Assembly: GCF_016428855.1 (NCBI RefSeq)
Contig: NZ_JAELTN010000022.1
Span: forward strand, 1-64,000
DNA length: 64,000 bases
Origin: Pedobacter sp. ASV28
GTDB lineage: Bacteria; Bacteroidota; Bacteroidia; Sphingobacteriales; Sphingobacteriaceae
Direction of reading: 5' to 3'
Shown in pieces: positions 5,170-26,677 of the stretch (position 1 is its first letter; the number at the start of each line of letters is the position of its first letter). The notes beneath the pieces are model-generated. The model worked only from the letters and a program-made list of their open reading frames with translations. It was not told the origin of the DNA and did no database searches. Position numbers and translations under genes: made by a program.

Positions 5170-6075
5170 TTATTTTTTATTCAGTTTTTCGTGGATAAAC
5201 CGTTTGATCCTATCCCAAAGAGAGCCTTTCCTGTGGGCCAAGAAATGTTTGATCGCTTGATAAGCCTCTTTATCTTCCGTTATTGTTTTTGGGAATTCTG
5301 TAATGGGCTTCGGATTGATCACTACGTTGTAAATATCATTGATCCCCGAGTGGATACCTGTTCCATCGTGCCCGATATTATTGACCAGCGATTGAGAGGG
5401 GTTTAAGGTCAAACCTCCATTTAGAAAGATCGAAGCGTACCAACGTATGGCCCAGGAATTGTTTTTTCCATGCTTGAAATCCTGCATCTGCTTCCAAAAA
5501 TTCATGGTATTATCTATGGAGAAGGCCTGTTTTTTGGTGGCGTCAAATTGCTGGATCAAATTATCGATATTGGGTTCAAAATGTTGCCAAGCCCTTTTCC
5601 AAGTGGCCCACCCCCAACTGGTAGCCGCTCTGTAAAAAAAACTTTGAGGAAGGTTTTCATGATTTAGTACATACATGTAGGCGCCAATGTGCATTACCTT
5701 TGGTTCATGGCGATAACGGTCTAAGGCCTCATTAAAATAGGTTAACGTATGTGGAGAACTGATCAGGTCGTCCTCAAAAACGATCACTTGACCATAGGTC
5801 TGATTTAGGTAGGAAACCCCTTCAATTACTGAATTGGCCAAGCCTTTGTTCGTTTCGCTTTCAATGATCTTAATACTCTTAAAGCCGTCTATAGTCTTAA
5901 TAAAATTTCTTACTTCATTTACCTTATCCTCGTCGACTTTGCTTTTTGCCCCATCTGAAAAAATGTACAACCTGCTGTCTGCGGCAAGTTCGTTCTGTTG
6001 TAAGAACTTTAGTGTACGTTCAGTATGTTGGGGCCTGTTGTAAACAAATAAAGCTATGGGAGCCAAGTTTTGCAT
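5170..6075 (-). CDS. GT-A glycosyltransferase (GNT-I/GT2-like)
   Basis: 301 residues. It opens with APIALFVYNRPQHTERTL and carries a DXD-type metal and nucleotide site, VFEDDLI, at about 99-105 (E101, D102, D103). SWGWATWKRAW at about 153-163 is the signature of a Bacteroidetes and proteobacterial group usually named hemolytic protein HlpA-like or sugar transferase. It is predicted to transfer a sugar in the cytoplasm. It lies between the giant T9SS protein gene (31-base gap) and the fucosidase gene (3-base gap) on one strand, so the three probably form an operon. The acceptor is unknown; modification of the exported protein or of surface glycan are both possible. Confidence 0.85.
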   Translation of the reverse strand: MQNLAPIALFVYNRPQHTERTLKFLQQNELAADSRLYIFSDGAKSKVDEDKVNEVRNFIKTIDGFKSIKIIESETNKGLANSVIEGVSYLNQTYGQVIVFEDDLISSPHTLTYFNEALDRYRHEPKVMHIGAYMYVLNHENLPQSFFYRAATSWGWATWKRAWQHFEPNIDNLIQQFDATKKQAFSIDNTMNFWKQMQDFKHGKNNSWAIRWYASIFLNGGLTLNPSQSLVNNIGHDGTGIHSGINDIYNVVINPKPITEFPKTITEDKEAYQAIKHFLAHRKGSLWDRIKRFIHEKLNKK

Positions 6076-6106: not shown

Positions 6107-9100
6107 TTAGCGAAGTATAGTCACACTACCAGTATATTTTCTTTTTGATTGATTGGCCAACTGCAAGATATAATAATAATTGCCTACGGGCAAGGGTTTT
6201 CCGTTGAAAATGCCATCCCAAGGCGTAATAAAATTATTGTTTTCGAAAACTTTTTGACCATATCGGTTAAATATTTTAACCGTAGTACCTATATAATCTT
6301 TAATATTTCTAATGACCCATTGATCATTCTTACCATCGCCATTTGGCGAAAAAACATTAGGAATAAAAATATCTTTCCATACGATAACTTTTACCTCGGC
6401 TTGTGCTGTGCAGCCACCTGGACCTGTTACGATTAGGGTATAAATAGTCGTAGATTCTGGATTAACCTTGGGATGCTTGATGTTGGGATAGTCAAGTCCA
6501 ATTGTTGGCGACCAACTATAGCTAAGAACATCATTGCCCGTTTGCGGCTTCAAAGTTTTGGGACCATCGTTTTCAATGATAATATCACCTTCAAAATAGA
6601 CTAAGGGTAATGGACTTACGGCAATAACAATCTTGTTGCTTATGAAGGGTACGCTACAGGCATCAGAACCAGCAATTTCACAATAAATCTCGTCGTTGTC
6701 TTTTAAACCGTTAGCAGTATATGTTCTTGAAGTAGTCGCCTGTATGCCATTTTTAAACCACTTAAATGTAGGATTTGTGCCGGCACTGGCATAGAGTGGT
6801 GTAAAAATGACTGGAGCTCCGGCACAGATGCTGGATTTGGATGCCGAAATACTCAAAGAAGGTATTAGACTTGTATTAATGATGATATCTTTTTGTAAAG
6901 TAACCATACAGCCGTTGGCATCGGTAATGGTTACATGGTAAGTGCCACTGCTATTAAAAGTATTGCTTGCGGAATTGGGCGTACTTCCACCATCCCATAG
7001 GTAAGTAACCCCTCCAGATGCGGTGAGGGTTACTTTATTGCAGCCAGTGGTATTACCTGTTATGTTGGTTTGTCCAATACCAATAGTAACCGTTTTAGAT
7101 AAAGTGGCCGAGCACCCTTCTGCATTGGTCACTGTAACAGTATATGTGCCGCTGGTGGTAAAGGTGTTCGTCGCAGCGCTGGGTGTTAACCCTCCACTCC
7201 ATTGGTAGCTTGTCCCTCCCGTAGCAATAAGGGTTGCGGAAGAACAGCCAGAGGGATTTCCAGAAATACTGACCGTAGGAGGCATAAAAACGTCGACTTT
7301 TAACGAATTGCTATAAGAAATACAGTTGTTGATGGTGGCAACTCGTCTGAAAAAAGTAGTTTCCGTAAACTCAGGAGGCGTATAGTCCTTTCCGGTAGCT
7401 GTAAAAATATCAATCCATGTAATGTTATCGAGGCTTTTTTGCCATTTATAAGTAAAGCTTGCCTGAACAGAAGCCGAAGGAGTAGATCCAGAGATGCTTA
7501 ATGTGGCGCTGGAACAAAATATATTTTGGGCAATATTAACCAAGTTGTTTTGAATGGCGGGATATATCAACAAACTGGTATAAGAGTCGTAAGTTGAAGG
7601 ATTGTTGGAAGTATTTTTTCTTCTGAAAGAGATGACAAGATTGCTATTGGTGAAATTAGTTAAATTATTCGTCTGATAGTTGACTTGGGTGGAATTAGCT
7701 GGGGCATTTGACCAAATATTATTAACGAGCATTTCCCATTGGTAATTTCCGGGACTGCTGCTTTCGCCGTTGAGTATTACATTTTCTCCAGAACAGCTAC
7801 TAACCGAGAAAGTATTTTGGGCATTTACATTAACTTCCCAAAAATAATCGATGCAGTTAGAAGTAATTTTATAGATTTTTGGGGTAGAAAAATCTGTTTC
7901 AATAGCTGAAAGAGGATCTAGCACCCCAATATCTGTCTCTATTTTAGGCTTTAATTGCCTTATGTTGGTACCAGTCTTAACAGTAATTGTTATTTTTTTG
8001 TTAATCACATCAATAATTGTTGGACCATTCTGTTCGTCAAGTTCAAACTTGGTAATTAATGGTTCTCCAGTAAGTTTGATTTGGTTGAATTTTGAGATAT
8101 AACCGTCAGAGTTACCGTGCTTTGCTGTTAGGTTTAAGTCGCAATTTCCGGGATTGAAGTCTACAGTACGACAAAATGCACCACCTAACAGCACATTCTT
8201 TTTTGAATCTACGTCAATTTTGTGCCCAAAGTTTCCAGTACAGCTGCTACCAAAATTAAATGCCCATTTATAACCCCCATTACTATCATATTTTGCAAAA
8301 AAAGTATCTCTTCCTCCATGAGAGGTCAATACTTTAGCTGCAGTGCCAGGATTAAACGTAAGTGTTTGATCGAAGAAGCCACCTATATAAGCATTGTTCT
8401 CATTGTCGACGGTTATGTAATAGCTATAGGGATTACTGGCGGTAGATGAAATGCCTCTGGCCCAAATGGTTTTTCCGCTGTTATCATATTTGGCAACAAA
8501 AAGGCTAATGGCACTGGTAGAATTTAAAGAGATTAAATTAGCCGAGTTGAAATTGATCGATCCAGAAAATACACCAGTTGCAAATAGGTCATTGGTAGGA
8601 CCAATTGAAATTGATGCTACAGTTCTACTTGAAGATCCATCTATTTTGTTGGCCCATTCTAAAATTCCATTTGATGTATATTGGGCAATGAAGTACGTTT
8701 CTCCCGATGCAGTAAAGTGATTTGCTACTCCTCTTGGGTTTAAATTAATGTTGGCTCCAAAGTAGCCCATTAAAGCGATAGAACCATTGGAGTCTGTTTT
8801 TACACTCTTTATTTCGTCCATGCCTGTTGAGCCAAACCCAGCTGACCAAAGAACATCTCCAATTGGATTATATTTTACCACAAATCCATCATAGCTGCCT
8901 CTGTTTGCAAGTGTATTGCCAGAAATCGTTATACTGCTAGATGAAAATGAACCCACAAAAATGACATTTCCATCTTTATCCGTAGTTACAACATGCCCCC
9001 GATCAGTACTAAAGCTACCCACGCTTCTTGCCCAAATGAAATTTCCATCCGTATCCAGCTTAACAACTAATGCATCTTCTCCTCCATTGCTGTTAATGGT

Positions 9101-24726: not shown

Positions 24727-25659
24727 CTACAACCGTAGACTCATTAAATCCCTTAAGGTACTATCTAGTTTTGGATATTGAAACTTAAAACCATTTTTTA
24801 CCAGTAGTTTTGGAGCTACCCACCTACTTTTTAGAATAAGTTCGGTTTCCGTTCCAATTAGCCGCGCACCCAGTGTCAACATCCAAGTGGAACAGGGTAA
24901 GCCAAAGTAGATTCCATATACTGCTCTTAGCTTTTGCATAAATTCCCTGTTGGTAATGGCATTTGGCGATGTGCAATTGACTCTACCTTTTATAGCTTCA
25001 TTTTCTAGGATTCATTGTGTACTGAGGGCCGCATCTTGTTCATGTATCCAACTTACATACTGTTTGCCATCGCCTTGTTTACCTCCCATTCCAAACTTTG
25101 CCAAGGTTAACAATCTTGGAAAGGCACCACCAGATCTGCCCAATACAATGCCCATTCTTAAGGCTATCTTTCGGGTATTTGGAAGTTGGGTCTCAAAAAA
25201 ACTTTCTTCCCATTGTCTACATACTTCAACAGAAAACCCATAGCCTATTTCTCCTGTACTTTCATCTTGTTCATGATCTTCAGCATGACGATAAATGGTG
25301 GCAGAAGTAATGTTGATCCAAACCTTTGGTGGATTGATCATTTTTTCGATCACGCGATTTAACAAGCGGGTTGGACCCACTCTAGAATAGATAATTTCTT
25401 GCCGATTTTTAGAAGTATACCTACAGTTTACGTTCTTGCCACAAAGATTAATCAATAAGTCGGCATTTTCAATTTCTATGCTCCAATCGCCCTCGGTTTT
25501 GCCATCCCATAGAACAGTTTTGATATTGGGTAGGCCTATGGGTTGTTGCTGCCTAGCCAATATGATAACCTCATTAGCTAAACCCATATAGTGTTTGGCT
25601 AGTACTTTGCCTAAATATCCGCTGCCACCAGCTAAAACTATTTTGTTGAACTTTTTCAT
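24727..25659 (-). pseudogene. TIGR01777-family epimerase broken by an in-frame TGA
   Basis: 310 codons in one frame, split by TGA at 25014-25012 (codon 216). Upstream: an SDR Rossmann start (IVLAGGSGYLGKVLA), NLCGKNVNCRYTSKNRQEI, NITSATIYRH, RMGIVLGRSGGAFPRL and SWIHEQD, all TIGR01777 landmarks. Downstream in the same frame: GRVNCTSPNAITNREFMQKLR and the C-terminal domain with RWVAPKLLVKNGFKFQYP, also family-typical. So the protein is complete apart from one codon. The context AALSTQ-stop-ILENEA suggests the lost residue was Trp (TGG to TGA). It is the second gene of an operon with the DCC-type gene, 23 bases upstream. Confidence 0.88.
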
Positions 25660-25682: not shown

Positions 25683-26465
25683 TTAAAACATGATAAAACC
25701 TAAGATAACAAGGCGATAAATGAGCCAACTAAAAGTCAACGAGTACCCTAAATCCAAAATTTTACTTCTTCTCAAATGTTCCAATAACATGAGTCCTGCA
25801 ACAAATAAGAAATATAAAAGGTAAACCATGGTATGTAGCTGCAAAAATGTATGGATCCAAAGCAGTGGTAGTAATAGTAAGCTTCCCGCTAAGGAAATGG
25901 TCATCATGTTGCCCAGATAGTCCCATAATTTTTGAGGCCGATATAAAAGGCAGACTGCGCCTTGAAAAAACAGTTGCCCACCGCAAATCAGGTACTCCCT
26001 GTAGGCATTGCCATAATGGGTCAGTAGGTAAGCTGCAATAAACCAGCTTAGTATCAAATATAGCATTCGATAATGAAGCTTAAATTCTGGCCACATCTCT
26101 TGAGGTTTTGGTCTTTTGGGGATGATGATCTTACGGTTGTAAGATACTAATGCATAGATTTTGCTCATTGCCCAGGCAAAAGGTTTAAAGGTAAACAAAG
26201 GGTTGAGCATGGGTATGGCATGACCTATGATTTTAAATAGGCTATATATGCCATAGGTAACCTTGCCTGTGCGCATGTCTACCAAAGCGATTTCATTAAC
26301 GACCCTTTTTTGATCTATGTATGGACAAATATTTTCGGACAGGTCCTGATAGGCACTTCTACCATTCGCCTCTAGCATTTTTGTTTTGGTAAAAGCTTCG
26401 GTATAAAAACGGCACATCGGACAATTAGCATCATATAGAATAAGGTGGTTGTATAATGTTTTTAT
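25683..26465 (-). CDS. DCC-type thiol-disulfide oxidoreductase, apparent ATA start
   Basis: The first ATG (26417) would cut the conserved motif: reading upstream in frame gives HLILYDANCPMCRFY, the DUF393/DCC signature with its CxxC. The open frame reaches a TGA at 26486-26484 and contains no ATG, GTG or TTG before the motif. The position where relatives begin (M-K-T-L) is an ATA at 26465-26463. From there the protein has 260 residues: a DCC domain, then about four transmembrane segments. Either ATA (or ATT at 26468) initiates weakly, or the start codon has mutated from ATG. It has a full promoter upstream and forms an operon with the broken epimerase gene. Confidence 0.75.
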   Translation of the reverse strand: MKTLYNHLILYDANCPMCRFYTEAFTKTKMLEANGRSAYQDLSENICPYIDQKRVVNEIALVDMRTGKVTYGIYSLFKIIGHAIPMLNPLFTFKPFAWAMSKIYALVSYNRKIIIPKRPKPQEMWPEFKLHYRMLYLILSWFIAAYLLTHYGNAYREYLICGGQLFFQGAVCLLYRPQKLWDYLGNMMTISLAGSLLLLPLLWIHTFLQLHTMVYLLYFLFVAGLMLLEHLRRSKILDLGYSLTFSWLIYRLVILGFIMF

Positions 26466-26512
26466 AATGTATGTTTTGAATTTTCAGTAATAATTGAAAC
26501 TTTAGGTTAAAA

Positions 26513-26535
26513 AATAAAGCCTTTAGGCTTTTATT
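26513..26535 (-). terminator. Terminator-like hairpin in the DCC operon leader
   Basis: Read on the minus strand: AATAAAAGCC, loop TAAA, GGCTTTATT (one bulged base), running into six Ts (26514-26509). It lies between the promoter at 26588-26558 and the DCC coding region, so if it acts it would stop transcription before the genes. Confidence 0.5.
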
Positions 26536-26557: not shown

Positions 26558-26588
26558 CAAATATACGTGGTGTTTCTGAAGTTTCAAA
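26558..26588 (-). promoter_or_regulatory. Full Bacteroidetes promoter for the DCC-epimerase operon
   Basis: On the minus strand TTTG (26588-26585), a 19-base spacer, then TATATTTG (26565-26558), exactly the TTTG-N19-TAnnTTTG consensus. Transcription should start near 26551, leaving a leader of about 85 bases that contains the hairpin at 26535-26513. Confidence 0.75.
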
Positions 26589-26677
26589 TATTATTGAAAT
26601 TTTTGGATTGCTTCTATTTTCTTGTCCATTTTTTTGAGCTGTGTTAAATTCTTACTTCTTTATCTCATCCAATTTTC

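Follow-up and report, generated by a model that had tools for sequence, protein, structure and literature searches.

An ATA codon at the start position of a DCC-type gene and an in-frame TGA in the neighboring TIGR01777 gene: a dispensable operon likely inactivated recently in a Pedobacter lineage

Results

Organization of the locus

The window, i.e., the whole stretch of 64,000 nucleotides that was analyzed, comes from contig NZ_JAELTN010000022.1 of Pedobacter sp. ASV28. An operon of two genes lies on its minus strand: a gene for a DCC-type membrane protein and, as the second gene, one for an oxidoreductase of the TIGR01777 family. Two palindromes and a terminator-like stretch are located upstream of the DCC-type gene. 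The coordinates are collected in Table 1.

Table 1. Features of the operon and related genes (positions in the window unless a locus is named)
Feature	Position	Strand	Remarks
TIGR01777-family oxidoreductase gene, second in the operon	24727..25659	-	310 codons with the TGA read through
In-frame TGA	25012..25014	-	Codon 216 of 310; product of 215 residues without the DUF1731 end
DCC-type membrane protein frame	25683..26465	-	260 codons counted from the ATA
Longest canonical-start ORF of the DCC-type gene	25683-26417	-	244 aa, begins at 26417
Junction of in-frame loss (approximate)	26012..26013	-	Some 10 residues; flanked by two long helices
CPMC motif	26412..26423	-	Contains the first canonical in-frame start (Met codon 26415-26417)
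ATA at the start-codon column	26463..26465	-	ATG in the relatives: 18/18 genus homologs, 80/80 loci
ATT immediately 5' of the ATA	26466..26468	-	Further near-cognate codon in the open frame
Proximal palindrome TTTCA-N8-TGAAA	26482..26499	.	Conserved 5' of the DCC-type gene; probable operator
Terminator-like AAAGCC..GGCTTTATTTTTT stretch	26510..26534	-	Resembles the regulator-DCC gap of L023/L024 (by eye)
Distal palindrome	26582..26599	.	18/18 bases identical to the copy before the MarR-type regulator gene of L023/L024
Membrane-half gene of G019	L020 1450-1938 (reverse-complement coordinates)
Membrane-half gene of G024	L021 1531-1998

Start region of the DCC-type gene

On the minus strand, the 5' part of the DCC frame reads TGA (26484-26486) AAA TTC AAA ACA TAC ATT ATA. 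From the ATA it runs through ATA AAA ACA TTA TAC AAC CAC CTT ATT CTA TAT GAT and then through GCT AAT TGT CCG ATG TGC, the last codons being those of the CPMC motif. As read from the sequence, no ATG, GTG, or TTG occurs in frame between the TGA and the ATG of this motif. The initial annotation had described a frame that is open upstream of the first ATG, an ATA in the column where relatives start, and a CxxC motif preceding the first ATG. The frame is indeed open as far as the TGA at 26484-26486, and the ATA is where it was placed. The statement about the motif holds for the first Cys (26421-26423); the second Cys (26412-26414) lies after the ATG.

All 18 full-length DCC homologs from the same genus have ATG at the column of this ATA, each with a matching upstream peptide, which resembles M-K-T-L-x-N-H-x-I-L-F-D-x-E-C-P-M-C. 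ATG was likewise found, with a matching peptide in each, in 80 of 80 loci; these are the best 80 of the 160 that encode a relative in a scan of genome contigs, and they overlap with the genus set. The initial annotation had also raised the case of homologs that begin at the internal ATG: none of the 18 genus homologs and none of these best 80 loci does so. Counted from the ATA, residues C15, P16, M17, and C18 are invariant in the 17 aligned sequences. Judging from these alignments, the residues upstream of the first ATG are homologous coding sequence and not a chance extension.

In G068 the start codon was not readable: this locus ends early, as at the end of a contig, and only the last 64 residues were matched. 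It should be mentioned that at this end (L231 141-170, in reverse-complement coordinates) the translation begins with letters that we take to be a sequencing-adapter artefact.

The frame carries its CxxC near the N-terminus, with the first Cys encoded upstream of any canonical start. The D-x-x-C-P-x-C arrangement near the N-terminus is common to this protein and the DCC1-like thiol-disulfide oxidoreductases (PF04134). Unlike the members of PF04134, the frame scores under the Pfam cut-off (22.9 bits; cut-off 27.8) and has a C-terminal half that is predicted to consist of long helices. The ortholog from Pedobacter chitinilyticus (L024) is likewise under the cut-off, at 23.2 bits. Because of this score, the protein is called DCC-type here and is not classed as a PF04134 member. 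The genome contains one other PF04134 gene, on contig C128, which scores 105.6 bits and looks intact.

In-frame deletion in the DCC-type protein

Ten alignment columns that are filled in more than 90% of 81 sequences are gapped in the DCC-type protein of the window. At 260 aa it is shorter than the next shortest uninterrupted DCC frame, which has 269 aa. A structure model (pLDDT 75.9, pTM 0.61) was used solely to place the loop at the deletion, residues 153-155, where the pLDDT is below 50. The two long helices flanking it in the model are presumed to be membrane helices. When the model was searched against the PDB with Foldseek, nothing matched at an E value of 0.001 or below.

In-frame TGA in the TIGR01777 gene

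With the TGA read as Trp, the product of the second gene scores 248.1 bits against the NCBIfam model TIGR01777 (cut-off 207.35), which places it in this family; the full-length frame is interrupted at codon 216. In 20 genus homologs, the column of the TGA is occupied by Trp in 18, Tyr in one, and Phe in one, and none of the 20 has an internal stop. Among the best 80 of the 160 loci, no stop lies within the best aligned oxidoreductase piece, and in 79 of them the frame is free of both stop and frameshift. The TGA that had been mentioned for the next gene therefore stands in a Trp column, and the proposal that each of the two lesions goes back to a G-to-A change fits both ATG to ATA and TGG to TGA.

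Several ways in which the codons might still be read were considered and rejected. Global recoding of TGA as Trp was rejected since there is no other credible in-frame stop among the 164 compared genes (see below). Recoding by a tRNA-Sec was also rejected: the best candidate reached 43.4 bits against an Rfam cut-off of 47, and the best two of the six places are tRNA-Ser. A-to-I editing of the TadA type was attractive in that it would restore both codons. The known motif for such editing in bacteria is UACG (PMC12255301), and neither context, T[A]AA at the ATA or G[A]AT at the TGA, fits the corresponding T[A]CG.

Regulator gene and palindromes

The regulator of L024 matches Pfam MarR_2 above the cut-off. 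A relative of it lies 42-566 bases upstream in 59 of the 80 loci (best 80 of 160), and in all 59 the palindrome TTTCA-N8-TGAAA stands 38-46 bases before the aligned start of the regulator. In 21 of the 80, the regulator was not found in the upstream DNA covered (478 bases for L071), and the operon is present there. Of 81 sequences including the window, 73 carry the palindrome no more than 150 bases from the DCC start; the number is 74 when L089 is counted, whose palindrome was missed by the pattern with flanks. In a shuffled control it appeared in 16 of 16,200 upstream stretches; the 81 real sequences are related and do not count as independent. Across the genome, no enrichment was seen: the pattern has 17 sites and its reversed control 16. 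A function is therefore argued by the conserved place alone. From this placement, TTTCA-N8-TGAAA is probably the operator of the MarR-type regulator.

In the window, the MarR-type regulator gene is missing upstream, and both palindromes and the terminator-like stretch remain. The gene seems to have been lost by an in-place deletion or by a move, and the distal palindrome may be read as the scar of the lost gene. One regulator of the same family is encoded elsewhere in this genome, on contig C152; it is 48% identical to that of L024 and has two palindromes of its own.

Close relatives (77-86%) of the C152 regulator were found in 5 of the 78 other genus genomes searched. In four of the five, the regulator is followed by two small membrane proteins and then by a TIGR01777 gene of 46-50% identity. 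This second architecture is seen at L223 7602-8945 (contig C152 of the ASV28 genome) and at L228, L230, and L233-L236. The TIGR01777 gene is absent from this second locus in ASV28 and in G068, the latter being among the nearest relatives by the regulator; both carry the DCC-linked type elsewhere (71% in G068). No name for the regulon was found. A literature search on the DCC/TIGR01777 pair returned no paper that contained two of the three terms, and one on the DCC family gave nothing useful among the matches listed.

Distribution of and damage to the operon in relatives

Close orthologs of both genes are present in 20 of 35 same-genus genomes and of neither in 15; two of these 15 (G021 and G028) are less than 81% complete. 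A distant TIGR01777 paralog, of about 25-33% identity, is also common in the genus. In G017, a genome without the operon, a stretch of 31 residues (G017:C11:78151-78243) is 68% identical to the oxidoreductase; it may be a fossil of that gene.

In G019 and G024, the whole DCC domain has been lost: only the membrane half (162 and 155 aa, respectively) is encoded, flanked by the regulator and by an oxidoreductase that is intact. Two of the 80 relatives (best 80 of 160) have lesions of their own in the operon. In Pedobacter zeae (L029), the oxidoreductase frame appears to shift between about residues 142 and 163, near position 6240-6310, and in Pedobacter sp. AJM (L038) an in-frame stop appears to interrupt the DCC gene near 5610. 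Because the operon is absent in 15 of 35 genomes, cut down in G019 and G024, and broken in L029 and L038, it is regarded as dispensable. As far as their sequences can tell, damage to this operon is a recurrent event among the relatives.

Survey of lesions in the same genome

The genome assembly (G000) comprises 5,279,953 bases in 160 contigs with a completeness of 99.71, and the operon sits well inside a contig of 76,725 bases. The survey set 1,065,841 bases of this genome against 1,140,000 bases from P. chitinilyticus (G059). From 885 non-overlapping ORFs of the relative, 164 genes were obtained (43 on the contig of the window), with 170,862 aligned coding bases and 129 testable starts. ORFs without a match, with less than 50% identity or 80% coverage, or overlapped by a better match were left out; genes with large deletions would thus escape detection.

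Three stop rows and 13 no-start rows were flagged; in the latter, neither the aligned first residue nor the stretch upstream of it provides a start codon. One of the stop rows was the TIGR01777 gene. The others were a gene on C98 with a difference located at 99% of it, and Q253 on C105, which begins without Met at the end of a fragment and was judged to be a non-coding frame. Besides the DCC-type gene, 12 no-start rows were set aside, ten of which have an internal Met aligned with the Met of the relative, i.e., the query starts were over-extended; those on C105 and at C88:5858 were set aside by eye alone. In all, 14 flagged rows were set aside: the over-extended starts, the one C-terminal difference, and three by eye, two of which are a single C105 frame.

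After this inspection, no credible lesion was left among the 164 genes beyond the ATA of the DCC-type gene and the TGA of the oxidoreductase gene, and none other of the 129 start-tested genes requires a non-canonical start. A smaller survey of 132 genes had the same outcome. Among the genes passing the limits of 50% identity and 80% coverage, none was reported to be broken into pieces. The lack of a further lesion in about 162 genes places the upper bound of a random lesion rate at about 1.9% per gene. This argues against a generally poor assembly, and the bound is compatible with two local errors.

Two other approaches were abandoned. Coding-potential scans for lesions were too noisy, yielding 7 and 57 nonsense candidates depending on the threshold. 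A first homology survey (148 genes, 11 frames with stops) was superseded, as antisense ORFs of the relative had served as queries. It was also observed that contig C127 (L127-L131, L202-L203) has a G+C content of 0.456, against about 0.39 elsewhere, and of 0.471 over its first 100 kb, which suggests an integrated element or a contig of foreign origin.

Sequence constraint on the two proteins

Constraint was assessed with 81 sequences per protein, L029 and L038 being included in their broken form; the four-residue oxidoreductase row of L057 is an artefact of start picking. The mean identity of the DCC-type protein to 77 other sequences was 0.5687, and the values for three sisters were 0.5763, 0.5719, and 0.5636. 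For the oxidoreductase, the mean identity was 0.6106, and those of the three sisters were 0.6189, 0.6185, and 0.6186. The DCC-type protein deviates at 3 of 78 conserved columns, one of them the start Met, which is the third highest count of the 81 (median 0); the oxidoreductase deviates at 1 of 74 and ranks tenth of 81.

Thus, each gene bears the kind of lesion that marks a pseudogene, removing the start in one case and truncating the product in the other, and no clear acceleration pointing to relaxed constraint was found in either protein among the 81 sequences. Relaxed constraint is not expected of a young lesion. The absence of accelerated change implies that the lesions are recent or that the genes are still working in some form.

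Discussion

We consider it likely that the operon, dispensable in the genus, has undergone a recent and genuine inactivation in one Pedobacter lineage. The ancestral order would have been the MarR-type regulator, the DCC-domain membrane protein, and the TIGR01777 oxidoreductase, presumably under control via the TTTCA-N8-TGAAA operators. The regulator gene would have vanished from its place, probably by deletion, leaving the operators and the terminator-like stretch behind. One substitution would have turned the DCC start into ATA, so that the full-length CxxC protein would be abolished or strongly reduced. Another substitution would have created the TGA at codon 216 and cut off the C-terminal third of the oxidoreductase. 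The absence of the regulator alone is not decay: 21 of the 80 loci (best 80 of 160) without a found regulator keep the operon, and a related regulator is encoded on C152. The unrelaxed constraint and the intact operators are points against inactivation.

Young pseudogenes, among them start-loss and nonsense alleles, occur in bacterial operons. The present case resembles them in having single-base lesions in neighboring genes, otherwise conserved proteins, and a gene pair that is dispensable in the genus. It differs in that the lesions are seen here in one assembled genome and may or may not be fixed.

The initial annotation had offered either decay of the operon or initiation at ATA/ATT. Decay is favored by the two adjacent lesions, by the lack of any other credible one in the 164 genes, and by the frequency with which the pair is absent, cut down, or broken in relatives. 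Under the second reading, the mutation is real and AUA, or the preceding AUU, acts as a weak start giving the full DCC-type protein at a reduced level. The persisting constraint on this protein and the intact operators are in line with it, and weak initiation is possible. Bacteroidota are mostly without Shine-Dalgarno sequences. At this gene the 15 bases before the ATA contain no G and thus no Shine-Dalgarno-like stretch, and a conserved non-canonical codon, as a functional AUA would show, was not seen, since all 80 relatives (best 80 of 160) have ATG. Moreover, the survey turned up no other gene in need of such a start, and the second gene of the operon is broken regardless. A precedent exists in Staphylococcus aureus, in which infC, ccpN, and citZ are reported to use AUA and cvfC1 to use AUU (PMC13009471). 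In poor medium, the output of luciferase reporters for cvfC1, ccpN, and citZ was about 10% of the AUG level, and in rich medium it reached up to 30% for ccpN; extended Shine-Dalgarno motifs are tied to infC, cvfC1, and ccpN, and the AUA of citZ is lineage-specific in S. aureus (PMC13009471). The DCC-type gene shares with the AUA genes the codon at the start position and, with citZ, the restriction to one lineage (PMC13009471). Unlike them, it lacks a Shine-Dalgarno-like stretch and conservation, its partner gene is broken, and it is known from sequence alone. On balance, this reading is rather unlikely; that AUA works as the DCC start without Shine-Dalgarno help, the substitution tuning the protein down and not off, is improbable.

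Errors of assembly or sequencing might account for one or both lesions, given a draft of 160 contigs, and an error in an intact gene would likewise leave protein sequences without relaxed constraint. Against this, two errors would be needed within one two-gene operon placed well inside its contig, the 164 compared genes hold no other credible lesion, and the DCC-type gene has an in-frame deletion as well. An assembly error is therefore unlikely. The membrane halves encoded alone in G019 and G024, between the regulator and the oxidoreductase, raise another thought, namely that the DCC domain is being shed selectively and the membrane half kept via an internal start. This is very improbable: the oxidoreductase is intact in those two genomes and broken here, the first internal ATG would retain most of the DCC domain minus its first Cys, and there is no sign that an internal start is used.

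For the preferred reading of recent inactivation, the homologs, the lesion survey in the same genome, and the constraint test together separate a start-loss allele from an annotation error. The case also exposes a conserved small regulon, consisting of a MarR-type regulator, palindromic operators, a membrane protein, and a TIGR01777 oxidoreductase. The loss of the CxxC domain in at least two relatives makes the role of the membrane half together with the oxidoreductase a testable question. The conserved regulon and the repeated loss of this domain are of more interest than the missing start itself.
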